Source: Thermomicrobium sp.
GTDB lineage: Bacteria > Chloroflexota > Chloroflexia > Thermomicrobiales > Thermomicrobiaceae
Direction of reading: 5' to 3'
NCBI GenBank assembly: GCA_025060175.1
Contig: JANXBE010000007.1
Location: 1-35,892 of the forward strand
DNA length: 35,892 nt
Each line of letters begins with the position of its first letter. Positions within the stretch are counted from its first letter, which is position 1. Position numbers and translations under genes: made by a program. The notes beneath the pieces were generated by a model. That model saw only the letters and a program-made list of their open reading frames with translations, was not told the DNA's origin and made no database searches. Shown here one piece after another: positions 1 to 23,884 of the stretch.

Positions 1-86
1 GGGACGTCAATGCCAACGGGACGCTGGAAACCGGGGTGGATGCGCTCGTGATTCCAGCCAACAGCGCGCCGTTGCCCGTGGGGTGA
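1..86 (+). CDS. 3' end of an unidentified gene
   Basis: An open frame entering from the left edge encodes about 27 residues, starting DVNANGTLETG and ending PLPVG before a TGA stop at 84-86. The DxNxNGxxETG pattern resembles the calcium-binding turns found in secreted or surface proteins, but the fragment is too short to assign a family. It is followed eight bases later by a strong hairpin, as expected at a gene end. Product unknown. Confidence 0.5.
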   Translation, partial: DVNANGTLETGVDALVIPANSAPLPVG

Positions 87-93
87 AGCGACA

Positions 94-128
94 GGGTCCT
101 GGTTTGTTTCGGTCGCTGACCAGGACCC
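94..128 (+). terminator. Hairpin after the leftmost gene
   Basis: A perfect 10-bp stem (GGGTCCTGGT at 94-103 paired with ACCAGGACCC at 119-128) closes a 15-nt loop. It starts 8 bases after the TGA of the partial gene. There is no clear T-tract after it, so it is either a weak intrinsic terminator or a transcript-end stabiliser. It lies between convergent genes and may serve both strands. Confidence 0.5.
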
Positions 129-314
129 CACCGCGTCCAGTCTCGCTCCCGTCCGGACCTCGTCGACCGACGATGCCCGGAAGCGAGCGGAGCGAGAGGT
201 GCGGTCGTCCTCGAAAGCTCCGACCTCAGCAGGTAACGAGGTGCGACCGCTGCGACAGTGCCTCTCGAACGGTCGGTCTCAGGTCGACGCACGGGGGTGC
301 GCGCTCCGAGCGAG

Positions 315-989
315 TCAGGCGAGCCAGCCGGACTCCTCGAGCCAGGGCAAGACCGCGTCGAGGCCCGCTAAGACGGCGTCCGCTGCTTCCAAGCCACCCA
401 GGTGGCGCGTGTGGTCGTTCGGGACGGCTAGGCAGCGCAGACCGGCAGCGCGGGCCGCGGCGACGCCGAGCGGCGCGTCTTCGATCGCGACGCAGCGCTC
501 CGGCGGCAGTCCGAGCCGCGCAGCGGCGAGTCGGTAGCAGTCCGGAGCCGGTTTGCCGTGGCGAACGTCGTCCCCGGTCACGACGACGGCGAACGTCTGG
601 GTGAGGCCCAGTTCGTTCAGGACGACCTGCACGTAGCGGCGATGGCCGCTGGTGGCCAGTCCGAGGGGAACGGCTCGTGCGTGCAGCGTGGCGAGCAGCT
701 CCAGCGCACCGGGCATCGGCCGGACGTTGCCGGGTAGATGGGTCAGGAAAATGGCGTCACGCTCGCGTGCTGCCTCGTCTGGCGGTACCGGGAGTGCCAA
801 CGCTTCGACGATGATGCGGGCTGCGTCGACGAGGCGCTGTCCGAAGAGCCGCGGCAGGAGCTCGTCCGGCAACGTGCGGCCGAACCGCCCGACGTAGCGT
901 TCCCAGGCGGCCAGCTGGAGCGCTTCGGAGTCGACCACGACCCCGTCGAGATCGAACACGACCGCGATGACTCGCTCGTCGCCGTCCAT
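315..989 (-). CDS. HAD-superfamily phosphatase, beta-phosphoglucomutase-like
   Basis: This 224-residue protein has all four haloacid dehalogenase motifs. Motif I is FDLDGVVVDSE near the N-terminus (nucleophile and acid/base Asp), motif II is LATSGH, motif III is the HGKPAPD lysine, and motif IV is AIEDAPLGVAAA. The helical cap between motifs I and II is the type seen in beta-phosphoglucomutase and phosphoglycolate phosphatase relatives. The substrate, probably a small phosphorylated sugar or glycolate, cannot be fixed. The ATG at 989 is chosen because the frame upstream overlaps the preceding gene and has no family similarity. A GGTGAAG-like ribosome site precedes it, and it starts 4 nt after the stop of the ADP-ribosylglycohydrolase-like gene, so the two are probably co-translated. 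Confidence 0.88.
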   Translation of the reverse strand: MDGDERVIAVVFDLDGVVVDSEALQLAAWERYVGRFGRTLPDELLPRLFGQRLVDAARIIVEALALPVPPDEAARERDAIFLTHLPGNVRPMPGALELLATLHARAVPLGLATSGHRRYVQVVLNELGLTQTFAVVVTGDDVRHGKPAPDCYRLAAARLGLPPERCVAIEDAPLGVAAARAAGLRCLAVPNDHTRHLGGLEAADAVLAGLDAVLPWLEESGWLA

Positions 990-20055: not shown

Positions 20056-20345
20056 GCAGCATGGTTCCGTCCGCGTCGAAGCGGCAGCGAGTCCCGGAGC
20101 GATGTCCGGTGCTCGGCGACCGATCCGGTCGATGGTGACCGATCTCCGGTGGACTGGAGGCGCCTGCGGCTCCACCGCGTGGTCTGCGCATGACGTCGGC
20201 GGCGCGGGCTGCTCGGGTGCGAGATCGGGCGAGTGCGCGCCTGTCGTGGTGCGCGCGAGGAGTGCACGATTGCTCATCGGGTCGTGCACGCCGTACAATG
20301 CGCGACGGGAGGAGCGTCGTCCGAACTCGTCGAACGGGGTGGGGC
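20056..20345. other. Intergenic region between menE and the malic enzyme
   Basis: No gene is supported. It contains a possible end-of-operon hairpin: CGGTGGA (20147-20153) pairs with TCCACCG (20171-20177) over 17 bases, without a T-tract. It also contains the malic enzyme promoter at 20270-20299. Confidence 0.45.
20270..20299 (+). promoter_or_regulatory. Sigma70-type promoter of the malic enzyme gene
   Basis: TTGCTC (20270-20275), 18 bases, TACAAT (20294-20299). The -10 differs from TATAAT at one position. The predicted start near 20306 gives a leader of about 40 nt. This marks the malic enzyme as a transcription unit separate from the men operon. Confidence 0.6.
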
Positions 20346-22859
20346 ATGTATCTGCTCGATCAGCCAGATGCGGCGTTAGCGTACCGGCGGCAGTATCGTG
20401 GGCTGATCGGCATCGCGAGCAAAGTACCGCTGCGTGACCGGGCGATGCTCAGCCTCGTCTATACGCCGGGAGTCGCGGAGGCGTGTCGGGTCATCAGCCG
20501 CGACGAGGTGGCATCGTTCGACCTGACGGGGCGTGGGAACACGGTCGCGATCCTGACCGATGCGTCGGACCTGTTCGGTCCGACGCGGGCACCGGTCGAG
20601 GCGGCGTTACCACTCCTCGAGGCCAAGGCAGTGCTGTTCAAGACGTTCGCTGGTGTCGATGCCGTACCGATCGGCGTGGACCTGACCGATCCGTTGGAGA
20701 TCGTGGAGGTCGCGCGGTCGTTGATTCCGACGTTCGGCGCGATCTGCCTGGATCATATTCGGGCTCCCCACAGCTTCACGATTCAAGACCACCTGGAGAA
20801 GGCGGCGCCGATTCCGGTCTTTTCCAACCAGCACCACGGAACAGCCATCCTGGTACTCGGCGCGTTGAAGAACGCGCTGGAAGTCGTCGGGAAACGACTC
20901 GAGCAGGTGCGGGTGGTCATCGCGGGCGCTGGGCTGGCTGGGATCGGTGTCGCACGGCTTCTCACCCGCGTGGGCGTCAAGGACCTCATCGTCTGTGACC
21001 GTGCGGGGGCGATCTACCTCGGGCGGCCGTATCGGATGAACTGGGCGAAGGCGTACTTGGCGAAGGAGACGAATCCGGAACGGCGGCGCGGTAGCTTGGC
21101 CGAGGTCCTCCGTGGTGCCGACGTCTTCATCGGGTTGGCGCGCGGCAACATCCTGACGCCGGAGATGGTTGCAGCGATGGCACCCGACCCGATCGTCTTC
21201 GCGCTGGCGCTGCCGACGCCGGAGATCGATCCGACGCTCGCCCGTCAGGCTGGGGCAGCGGTCGTGGCGACTGGGCGATCGGATTATCCGAACATGATGG
21301 ACGTCTCGCTCGTCTTCCCTGGGGTCTTCCGCGGTTTGTTGGACTCCGGCGCCCGGAACATCCGCTTGCGGACGCTGATCTATGCCGCAGAGGCGTTGGC
21401 GAGTCTGGTGGCGCCGGAACAGCGCGGGCCGGAACAGATCGTGCCGCAGATCTTCGACTTCCGGGTCGCGCCGGCGATCGCGGCGGCGGTGGTCCAGGCA
21501 GCGCTGGAGACGCAGGAGGCGACGCGGCAAGTCGATCCGCAACAGGTGGCGGAGAATACGAGGCGCTATATCTACGAGGGAGCGTTCGAGCCGCCACGCC
21601 CGTCGAACCGGCGCGGCCGGTCATTGGCCGAGCAGGCGTTGGATCTGCGTCGGCGGTATCGTGGGGTGCTCGAGATCCGCAGCAAGCTCCCGGTCCGGGA
21701 TCATCACATCCTCAACTTGCTCTATCTCCCACCGGCAGCGTTGGCGCCGGTCGAGGAAGTCCGTCACCATCGGGAAGCGGTCTACGACCTGACCGTGAAG
21801 GGGAACCTGGTCGCGATCGTGACCGATGGGAGCGCTGTTCTGGGGCTCGGGGATATCGGGCCGCAGGCAGCACTGCCGGTGATGGAAGGGAAGGCGGTGC
21901 TGTTCCAGTCGCTCGGTGGCGTCGAGGCGTTTCCGATCTGCATCGCGGAACGCGACCCGGAGCGGATCGTGGACATCGTCGCGGCGATCGCTCCCTCGTT
22001 CGGTGGCATCAATCTGGAAGACATCTCGGCTCCCCGTTGCTTCGAGATCGAGGCTGCGCTCAAGGAGCGCCTCGACATGCCGGTGTTCCATGACGACCAG
22101 CACGGGACCGCGATCGTGGTGTTGGCGGCGCTCATCAATGCGTTCAAGCTCCGCGAAACCCCACTCGCCGAGGCGAGGGTCGTCATCAACGGGGCCGGTG
22201 CCGCTGGCATCGCGACGGCGAAACTGCTCCTGGTCTATGGCGTCGGTGACGTGGTGCTCTGTGACCGACACGGTGCGATCTACCGCGAGCGCGAGGTGGG
22301 AATGAATCGCTACAAGATGGAGATCGCTCGGCTCACGAACAAGGCAGGGGTTCGAGGGGATCTCGCGGAAGCGCTCGTCGGTGCGGACGTCTTCATCGGT
22401 CTCTCGAGCCCGAACATTCTCACGCCGGAGATGATCCGGACGATGGCTCCAGCGCCGATCGTGTTCGCGCTGGCCAATCCCGATCCGGAGATCCATCCGG
22501 ATCTGGCGCTCGAAGCCGGGGCGCTCGTCGTGGCGACCGGCCGCTCGGATTTCCCGAATCAAGTGAACAACTCCCTCGCCTTCCCTGGTGTCTTCCGCGG
22601 TGCGCTGGACGTGCGCGCCCGCGACATCAACGACGCGATGAAGCTGGCGGCGGCACAGGCGATCGCCGAGCTCGTCAGCCCACGCCAGCTCTCCCCGCAG
22701 TCCATCATTCCGGACAGCCTGGACCTGAATGTCCCGCCGGCCGTGGCGGCAGCGGTCGCGCGTGCAGCGCTGGAGACCGGTGTCGCGCAGGTGCACGCCG
22801 ATCCTGACGACGTTGCTGCCCGGACGCGCGAACTCTTGTATGAGGGTACGCGGCGCTGA
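20346..22859 (+). CDS. Tandem (two-domain) malic enzyme fusion
   Basis: This 837-residue protein consists of two complete malic-enzyme domains in a row (about 1-415 and 425-837). Malic enzymes convert malate and NAD(P)+ to pyruvate and CO2. Domain 2 has the metal and substrate residues: GLGDIG (about 500-505), EGK (Lys516), LEDI (Glu558, Asp559), HDDQHGTA (582-589), ANP (Asn711), QVNN (739-742) and NAD(P) motif GAGAAG. Its YTPGV loop has become YLPPA (460-464). Domain 1 keeps YTPGVAEAC (39-47), Lys94 and GAGLAG. It has lost the rest: LDHI for LEDI, SNQHHG for HDDQHG, ALP for ANP, MMDV for QVNN, and GLGDIG is gone. Domain 1 alone should be inactive. It has its own promoter, and the exchanger gene follows after 32 bases. 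The GTG-rich frame upstream of 20346 is not used because GGGGTGGGG precedes this ATG. Confidence 0.9.
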   Translation: MYLLDQPDAALAYRRQYRGLIGIASKVPLRDRAMLSLVYTPGVAEACRVISRDEVASFDLTGRGNTVAILTDASDLFGPTRAPVEAALPLLEAKAVLFKTFAGVDAVPIGVDLTDPLEIVEVARSLIPTFGAICLDHIRAPHSFTIQDHLEKAAPIPVFSNQHHGTAILVLGALKNALEVVGKRLEQVRVVIAGAGLAGIGVARLLTRVGVKDLIVCDRAGAIYLGRPYRMNWAKAYLAKETNPERRRGSLAEVLRGADVFIGLARGNILTPEMVAAMAPDPIVFALALPTPEIDPTLARQAGAAVVATGRSDYPNMMDVSLVFPGVFRGLLDSGARNIRLRTLIYAAEALASLVAPEQRGPEQIVPQIFDFRVAPAIAAAVVQAALETQEATRQVDPQQVAENTRRYIYEGAFEPPRPSNRRGRSLAEQALDLRRRYRGVLEIRSKLPVRDHHILNLLYLPPAALAPVEEVRHHREAVYDLTVKGNLVAIVTDGSAVLGLGDIGPQAALPVMEGKAVLFQSLGGVEAFPICIAERDPERIVDIVAAIAPSFGGINLEDISAPRCFEIEAALKERLDMPVFHDDQHGTAIVVLAALINAFKLRETPLAEARVVINGAGAAGIATAKLLLVYGVGDVVLCDRHGAIYREREVGMNRYKMEIARLTNKAGVRGDLAEALVGADVFIGLSSPNILTPEMIRTMAPAPIVFALANPDPEIHPDLALEAGALVVATGRSDFPNQVNNSLAFPGVFRGALDVRARDINDAMKLAAAQAIAELVSPRQLSPQSIIPDSLDLNVPPAVAAAVARAALETGVAQVHADPDDVAARTRELLYEGTRR

Positions 22860-22891: not shown

Positions 22892-23884
22892 GTGGGGGCG
22901 ACGCTCGCCGTATTCGTCGTGAGTGCCGCATTCGTCGTCCTGGCCGGCTGGGAACTGACGCGGCGGGCGGAAGAGCTCGCCGAACGGACTGGCCTCGGCC
23001 ATGCCTGGATCGGTGCCATCGTGCTCGCGGCTGCGACCTCGCTCCCCGAGCTTTCGGTCGACCTCGTCGCAGTCCGTCGGGGCCTCTCTAACTTCGCCAT
23101 CGGCGATCTCTTCGGCTCCTGCATGGTCAACATGGCGGTCCTCGCGGTGGCTGACCTCGCGACGCCGCAGGTTCGGATCTTGACCCGGGTCGTGATCGAC
23201 CAAGCGTTGGCCGGGACGGTGGCGATCGTTCTGCTGGCGATCGCCGCACTCGGGATCGTGACGGCGGCGGAGTTCGCTGTGCTGGGAATCGGATGGGCGA
23301 CCGGTCTCATCGGACTGGTGTACCTCTGGGGTGCTTGGTTGTTGCACGCGACGCGGCGAGCGCGTCTGCTACCGGTGCCACTCGAGGACCCGACGCGAGC
23401 CCCTCGGGGGCTCGCGCGATCCGTCATCCGGTTCGGTGCAGCGACGGTCGTCCTCCTCGTCGCGGCAGGGTATCTCATCGCTGCCGCGGAGACGTTGGTC
23501 GGGCGACTCGGCGTCACGATCGGCTTCTTCGGGATCGCCGTGTTGGCGGTGGTCACCTCGCTGCCGGAGATCGTGGTCTCCGCTGCTGGTCTGCGCCGCG
23601 GTTCCTACGACCTGGTGGTCGGGAATCTGCTCGGGAGCAACGCGTTCAACATGGTGATCCTGTTGTTCCTCGATGTCGCTGACGGGCGAGGCCCGCTCCT
23701 GCGGTACGCGGAGCCATCGGTCTTGGTCGGCAATCTCTTCGCGATCCTCCTCACTGCCCTCGTGGTCGTGGGCACACTCAGCCAAGCGGAGCCACGCCAC
23801 CGTTTTCTCGATCCCGGTGCACTCCCGGTCCTCCTCTTCTACGCGCTCGGAGTCTTGGCGGCTTACCAGGCGACGCTATCCTGA
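22892..23884 (+). CDS. Sodium/calcium exchanger (CaCA) family protein
   Basis: This 330-residue membrane protein has the two-fold repeat of the CaCA family. Each half holds an alpha motif: AAATSLPELSVDLVAVRRG (about 47-65) followed by GDLFGSCMVNM, and VVTSLPEIVVSAAGLRRG followed by VGNLLGSNAFNM. The acidic residues that bind the exchanged cation are kept (both Glu in SLPE). About ten hydrophobic segments are visible, with a short charged loop near 150-170. The first repeat has GSCMVNM where most have GSNxxN, so the Asn is replaced by Cys. The GTG start at 22892 is uncertain because the region is G-rich. It is 32 bases after the malic enzyme and may be on the same mRNA. Confidence 0.85.
   Translation: MGATLAVFVVSAAFVVLAGWELTRRAEELAERTGLGHAWIGAIVLAAATSLPELSVDLVAVRRGLSNFAIGDLFGSCMVNMAVLAVADLATPQVRILTRVVIDQALAGTVAIVLLAIAALGIVTAAEFAVLGIGWATGLIGLVYLWGAWLLHATRRARLLPVPLEDPTRAPRGLARSVIRFGAATVVLLVAAGYLIAAAETLVGRLGVTIGFFGIAVLAVVTSLPEIVVSAAGLRRGSYDLVVGNLLGSNAFNMVILLFLDVADGRGPLLRYAEPSVLVGNLFAILLTALVVVGTLSQAEPRHRFLDPGALPVLLFYALGVLAAYQATLS

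Follow-up and report, generated by a model that had tools for sequence, protein, structure and literature searches.

The gene at positions 20346-22859 on the forward strand of the window (the whole 35,892-nucleotide stretch of Thermomicrobium sp. DNA analysed here) joins two malic enzyme (ME) domains in one chain, and the product is very probably an obligate pseudo-heterodimer within a single chain, whose one active site is composite, analogous to monomeric isocitrate dehydrogenase. The original prediction had proposed such an enzyme, with the first domain (D1) either donating its YTPGV loop to the second (D2) or acting as a regulatory pseudoenzyme. Donation is supported by the geometry of homologous enzymes and by reciprocal losses of catalytic residues that were found in 100 out of 100 tandem enzymes.

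The translation of this part of the window gives an uninterrupted frame, i.e. a complete gene of 837 amino acids plus a stop codon. Two Pfam families, malic (PF00390) and Malic_M (PF03949), are each matched twice with scores above the cut-off (112.2 and 149.5 bits), which confirms the two ME domains in one frame. The mechanical open reading frame starts at 20190 (889 aa), but the frame of the Thermomicrobium roseum orthologue begins at the ATG that corresponds to 20346. The closest named match is the megaplasmid of T. roseum DSM 5159 (NC_011961.1; 94.9% identity over all 837 residues, in one uninterrupted piece), and relatives in the same genus carry the gene at 94-96% identity. The genome containing the window is a 54%-complete assembly. 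No stop codon or frameshift lies between the two halves. Separate genomes, the complete T. roseum record among them, yield 100 proteins with this undivided frame, so the tandem ME is not an assembly artefact. We note that the gene table of NC_011961.1 (L153:12001-14514) lists only the second half (TRD_RS15155, 411 aa, NADP-dependent malic enzyme), even though the 837-residue frame is open there; this table is incomplete, and an annotation of the first half may exist in another listing. The tandem architecture may thus be under-annotated.

All features described below lie on the forward strand. D1 (residues 1-415, 20346..21590) was delimited by the ME profile and by a structure match (5cee on residues 6..393, rmsd 1.4). 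It combines a degenerate catalytic pocket with an intact dinucleotide motif, GAGLAG (residues 194-199, 20925..20942), and carries the tyrosine motif Y39-T-P-G-V43 (20460..20474), which is predicted to be donated. The catalytic Lys, K94 (20625..20627), is also kept in this protein. The metal-ligand pair, which is Glu-Asp in single-domain enzymes, reads L-D136-H137-I (20751..20756), and the H-D-D motif has degenerated to S160-N161-Q162 (20823..20831) in the context S-N161-Q162-HHG; position 161 is that of the catalytic-triad Asp, whose role follows PMC11944484. L289 (21210..21212; A-L289-P) replaces the Asn that contacts substrate and nicotinamide, D319-V320 (21300..21305; M-D319-V320) replaces an Asn pair, and FGPTRA stands in place of GLGDIG. 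The motifs originally named for D1, both kept and lost, were all located as described. The loss of the metal-binding Glu and Asp holds for this protein, in which Glu has become Asp136 and Asp has become His137, but it is not general in the order, where other members retain the Asp.

D2 (residues 416-837, 21591..22856; ME profile and structure match) has a full catalytic core and a remodelled Tyr loop. Its core comprises GLGDIG (500-505, 21843..21860), the catalytic Lys K516 (21891..21893), the metal ligands E558-D559 (22017..22022), the triad Asp and a further metal ligand in HD583-D584Q (22092..22097), the cofactor motif GAGAAG (616-621, 22191..22208), and the substrate Asn residues N711 (22476..22478) and N741-N742 (22566..22571). 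The claim that D2 keeps these motifs was therefore correct. The Tyr loop of D2 reads Y460-L-P-P-A464 (21723..21737): TPGV is indeed lost, as had been noted, but the Tyr itself is retained, and the loop has in addition gained one inserted residue.

This division of the catalytic residues was followed in a comparison set of 100 full-length tandem MEs and 95 single-domain MEs, from which one tandem-looking Nitrospirae locus with a broken frame (L040) was omitted. Eight core positions were scored, in D1 numbering and with the letters of the single-domain enzymes: K94, E136, D137, D161, D162, N289, N319 and N320. All eight residues are present in 95 out of 95 single-domain enzymes and in 100 out of 100 D2 domains, and the full set occurs in 0 out of 100 D1 domains. 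D1 domains lack between two and eight of them, and the triad Asp D161 is gone in every one; the catalytic Lys is replaced by R, V or A in 15 out of 100, which requires at least five changes on a FastTree tree. The Tyr motif follows the opposite course: YTPGV is kept in every D1, whereas Y-x-P-G-V is intact in none of the 100 D2 domains. The one-residue insertion in the Tyr loop occurs in all D2 domains and in 0 out of 195 others (100 D1 and 95 single-domain), and the Tyr460 position itself is occupied by Tyr in 91 domains, by His in seven, and by Cys and Phe in one each; these replacements require a minimum of five changes on the same tree. In other words, a full catalytic set is obtained only by pooling the Tyr motif of D1 with the Lys, triad Asp, three metal ligands and substrate Asn residues of D2. 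The search of related genomes for the domain pair and for paired losses thus showed an absolute split, and among the 100 relatives there was none in which both halves are intact or their roles exchanged.

Two further positions distinguish the halves, and both correspond to cross-chain contacts in the ME of Entamoeba (EhME), the residue correspondence being taken from motif spacing. Residue 105 (D105, 20658..20660), equivalent to EhME Asp131 which contacts Ile49 of the partner, is Asp in all 100 D1 domains and Glu in all 100 D2 domains. Residue 99 (EhME Lys125) is Lys in 100 out of 100 D1 but in 48 out of 100 D2 domains. When positions were contrasted by region in the first 51 tandem enzymes, the result went in the expected direction at modest significance (Fisher p 0.005). 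The contrast is weakened by six conserved positions that lie outside the Tyr loop and yet share the pattern of D1 (99, 101, 156, 183, 191 and 232); only position 99, the known cross-chain contact, stands out among these in the 100-protein set. The Lys of the GK motif (EhME Lys46, also a cross-chain contact) was inspected as well. Its positions in the window are 20403-20405 (residue 20) and 21666-21668 (residue 441); it is Lys in 95 out of 95 single-domain enzymes, and a small or aliphatic residue in 100 out of 100 tandem D1 and in nearly all of the D2 domains listed.

The published structures of small ME dimers offer an explanation for this pattern, since the tyrosine of YTPGV reaches the active site of the partner subunit (PMC7902834, PMC11944484). 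In MaeB the Tyr (Y52) is donated to the opposing active site (PMC7902834), and in the prokaryote-like EhME the chains are entangled, with a Lys120-Tyr65' contact of 2.8 A and a beta1-beta1' pairing between chains (PMC11944484). Given donation across protomers, D1 has retained the parts required of a Tyr donor, and D2 everything else. We propose that the tandem ME arose when the two protomers of a small ME dimer of the usual entangled type were fused into one chain, in which D1 and D2 would pack like the two halves of the ancestral dimer. The crossover arm of D1 would then carry Tyr39 into the pocket of D2, as inferred from the homologous crystal structures, and the chemistry would take place at D2 with K516, E558, D559, D583, D584, N711, N741/N742 and the D2 cofactor site. 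The mirror site, composed of Tyr460 and the D1 pocket, would be doubly broken and dead, so that one chain is predicted to have one site for the oxidative decarboxylation of malate. Y460 may keep a residual role, as this residue is still Tyr in most D2 domains.

The structure prediction of the full chain, which had been suggested as a check, gave a confident pseudo-dimer (AlphaFold, mean pLDDT 92.5, pTM 0.92); such a pTM over 837 residues points to a confident arrangement of D1 relative to D2. The input alignment contained 27 sequences, only six of them full tandem rows, so that few relatives informed the model of D1. Both D1 and D2 match small MEs of known structure (Z 46-54, rmsd 1.2-1.9), and the predicted tandem model has the fold of these enzymes. 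Non-swapped eukaryotic MEs, in which the Tyr stays with its own chain, align, as far as the ends of the ranges tell, from model residues 24-28 to 837, i.e. from the D1 arm to the end of D2. When residues 60-837 were predicted alone, with the D1 arm (1-59) removed, beta1 of D2 (residues 442-446, 21669..21683) lost its strand assignment. This is the behaviour expected if D2 beta1 pairs with D1 beta1 (residues 21-25, 20406..20420), its predicted partner across the pseudo-dimer interface, in the manner of the EhME pairing. In the shortened model most eukaryotic ME rows start at the linker, at original residue 414 (355..778 in the new numbering), which places their body on D2; several others still start inside D1 (44..778 and 12..778), and the deletion test is therefore supportive but not clean.

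The tandem ME occurs across the whole order, and beyond it in further Chloroflexota (G149, G150, G345 and G379) and in records labelled Deltaproteobacteria (placed in Myxococcota), Proteobacteria and Vampirovibrionales, with many more in relatives of three such genomes. The lineage labels in the 100-protein set include Thermomicrobiales-type Chloroflexota, Myxococcota, Pseudomonadota, Melainabacteria and others; some of these labels may be wrong, since most of the genomes are metagenome-assembled. A tree was built from 38 tandem pairs and 24 single-domain enzymes by a quick method with SH-aLRT and no bootstrap; in it D1, D2 and the single-domain MEs form one clade each (SH-aLRT 99/97/98). A single ancient fusion therefore explains the tandem MEs, which may later have spread by transfer or by descent. 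The dN/dS values against nine close relatives, where computable, are 0.02-0.10 in both halves, with a high dS for several pairs; these substitution patterns indicate strong purifying selection on D1 and D2 alike. In 14 out of 14 near-complete genomes of the family no further ME gene turned up, as all reported Malic_M matches there belong to the two domains of the tandem gene.

Unfused adjacent ME pairs (G407/L150 and L035) were considered as forerunners in which the split had already taken place, and were rejected because in either pair the motif set is retained by the two genes alike. The two adjoining single-domain MEs at L150:2206-5260 each have an N-terminal extension that by eye resembles an ACT domain; those at L035:2970-5409, in a Clostridiales assembly, are likewise separate genes with all motifs intact. 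Another unusual arrangement is seen in L124 (G149:C80:1900-6460), where a partial second tandem ME adjoins a complete one and the D2 of the partial copy has Phe at the Tyr460 position (LFLPPAN).

The cofactor motif of D1 deserves separate consideration. Its GxGxxG glycines and the following Asp218 are present in 100 out of 100 D1 domains, while the third Gly is Ala in 49 out of 100 D2 domains. D1 has on the other hand lost N289, whose MaeB equivalent by our inferred correspondence, N300, contacts the nicotinamide (PMC7902834). Taken together this suggests that D1 may accommodate the adenosine moiety of a nucleotide, and regulation through this site, in addition to Tyr donation, is a tentative possibility raised by the sequence conservation. 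A wider version, in which the tandem MEs form a widespread class with D1 both donating Tyr and allosterically controlling the single D2 site through bound nucleotide, and in which the entanglement of the ancestral protomers may also have left a true knot in the fused chain, seems to us rather unlikely. It is very improbable that D1 is chiefly a regulatory pseudoenzyme which gates D2 in its nucleotide-bound state, with Tyr donation secondary or absent. The nucleotide motif is indeed stricter in D1 than in D2 and selection on the two halves is equally strong, but a Rossmann fold may retain GxGxxG for structural reasons, and such a role leaves unexplained both the known cross-subunit geometry of the Tyr and the fact that YTPGV is the one catalytic motif retained in every D1, and is dismantled in D2. 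We give a similarly small chance to the idea that the altered pocket of D1 has gained a new catalytic or ligand-binding activity: SNQHHG is strongly conserved within the order, yet the pocket varies by lineage (HNDQHG, LHEAHV, NNHREG and others), which implies no common new activity, and the triad Asp is lost in every lineage.

The prevalence of Tyr460 could also be read as a sign that D2 is active alone, or in a D2-D2' pair, through its own Tyr, with D1 as a decaying passenger. We hold this to be most unlikely, as nine of the 100 enzymes have His, Cys or Phe at this position through repeated changes, every D2 carries the loop insertion, and D1 does not decay: its dN/dS is as low as that of D2 and its YTPGV is invariant. 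That the product is simply an inactive remnant is hardly credible. Each half does lack part of the catalytic set, but the two sets of losses complement each other and are preserved from phylum to phylum, the dN/dS values are low, and the near-complete genomes of the family appear to have no other ME.

The gene order around the tandem ME is shared with T. roseum, with an AMP-binding ligase upstream that is annotated in T. roseum as o-succinylbenzoate-CoA ligase; an AMP-binding ligase also adjoins the tandem gene in G007, a genome of the same family. Downstream in the window (22892-23884) lies a gene for a Na/Ca exchanger family protein (PF01699). In another genome (L032:4493-6305) the tandem ME is near the TRAP transporter genes DctP and DctM, which belong to a class of C4-dicarboxylate transporters.

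Why small MEs share active sites between subunits was called unclear in the paper on the Entamoeba structure (PMC11944484), and the tandem MEs are a natural experiment on this sharing. The residues are divided alike in every tandem enzyme compared, so the two halves label donor and acceptor residues, including those at interface positions 99 and 105. The tandem ME is also a ready system in which single-site and two-site behaviour can be compared, and in which the possible retention of a dead half as a nucleotide sensor can be studied.

We found no earlier description of a fused or tandem malic enzyme in the open-access papers searched, in line with the original remark that no such described system was known, nor was a reported assay of a tandem-form ME found in these papers. 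The closest relatives are the small prokaryotic-type MEs of Phytoplasma (5CEE), Thermotoga (TM0542, 1VL6/2HAE), Pyrococcus (1WW8/2DVM) and Entamoeba (3NV9), which have the fold of each tandem half, the same catalytic residues as the two halves pooled and, by homology, the same entangled composite-site architecture. They are however homodimers of one chain of ~390-490 aa with two composite sites, whereas the tandem ME consists of two diverged copies in one chain with only one of the two sites complete. It is thus a fused variant rather than an ordinary small ME, as it is not a homodimer of single-domain chains. The hybrid MaeB enzymes are of similar length and also have an ME domain whose Tyr is donated to the opposing site (PMC7902834), but their second domain is a phosphotransacetylase (PTA), while that of the tandem ME (416-837) is another ME. 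Pfam gave no PTA match in the tandem ME, which is therefore not a MaeB hybrid. In monomeric isocitrate dehydrogenase a domain duplication replaced the dimer by a single chain with a single site, according to the title of Yasutake 2002 as cited in PMC5979607. It is the nearest precedent for the principle, and for the principle only, as it belongs to another enzyme family. The sequence and the predicted model of the tandem ME agree with this type of organization, i.e. one chain that mimics a dimer and has one site. A further parallel is the C1/C2 pair of mammalian adenylyl cyclase, a pseudo-heterodimer of unrelated fold and chemistry whose shared interface holds a working site and a degenerate one.
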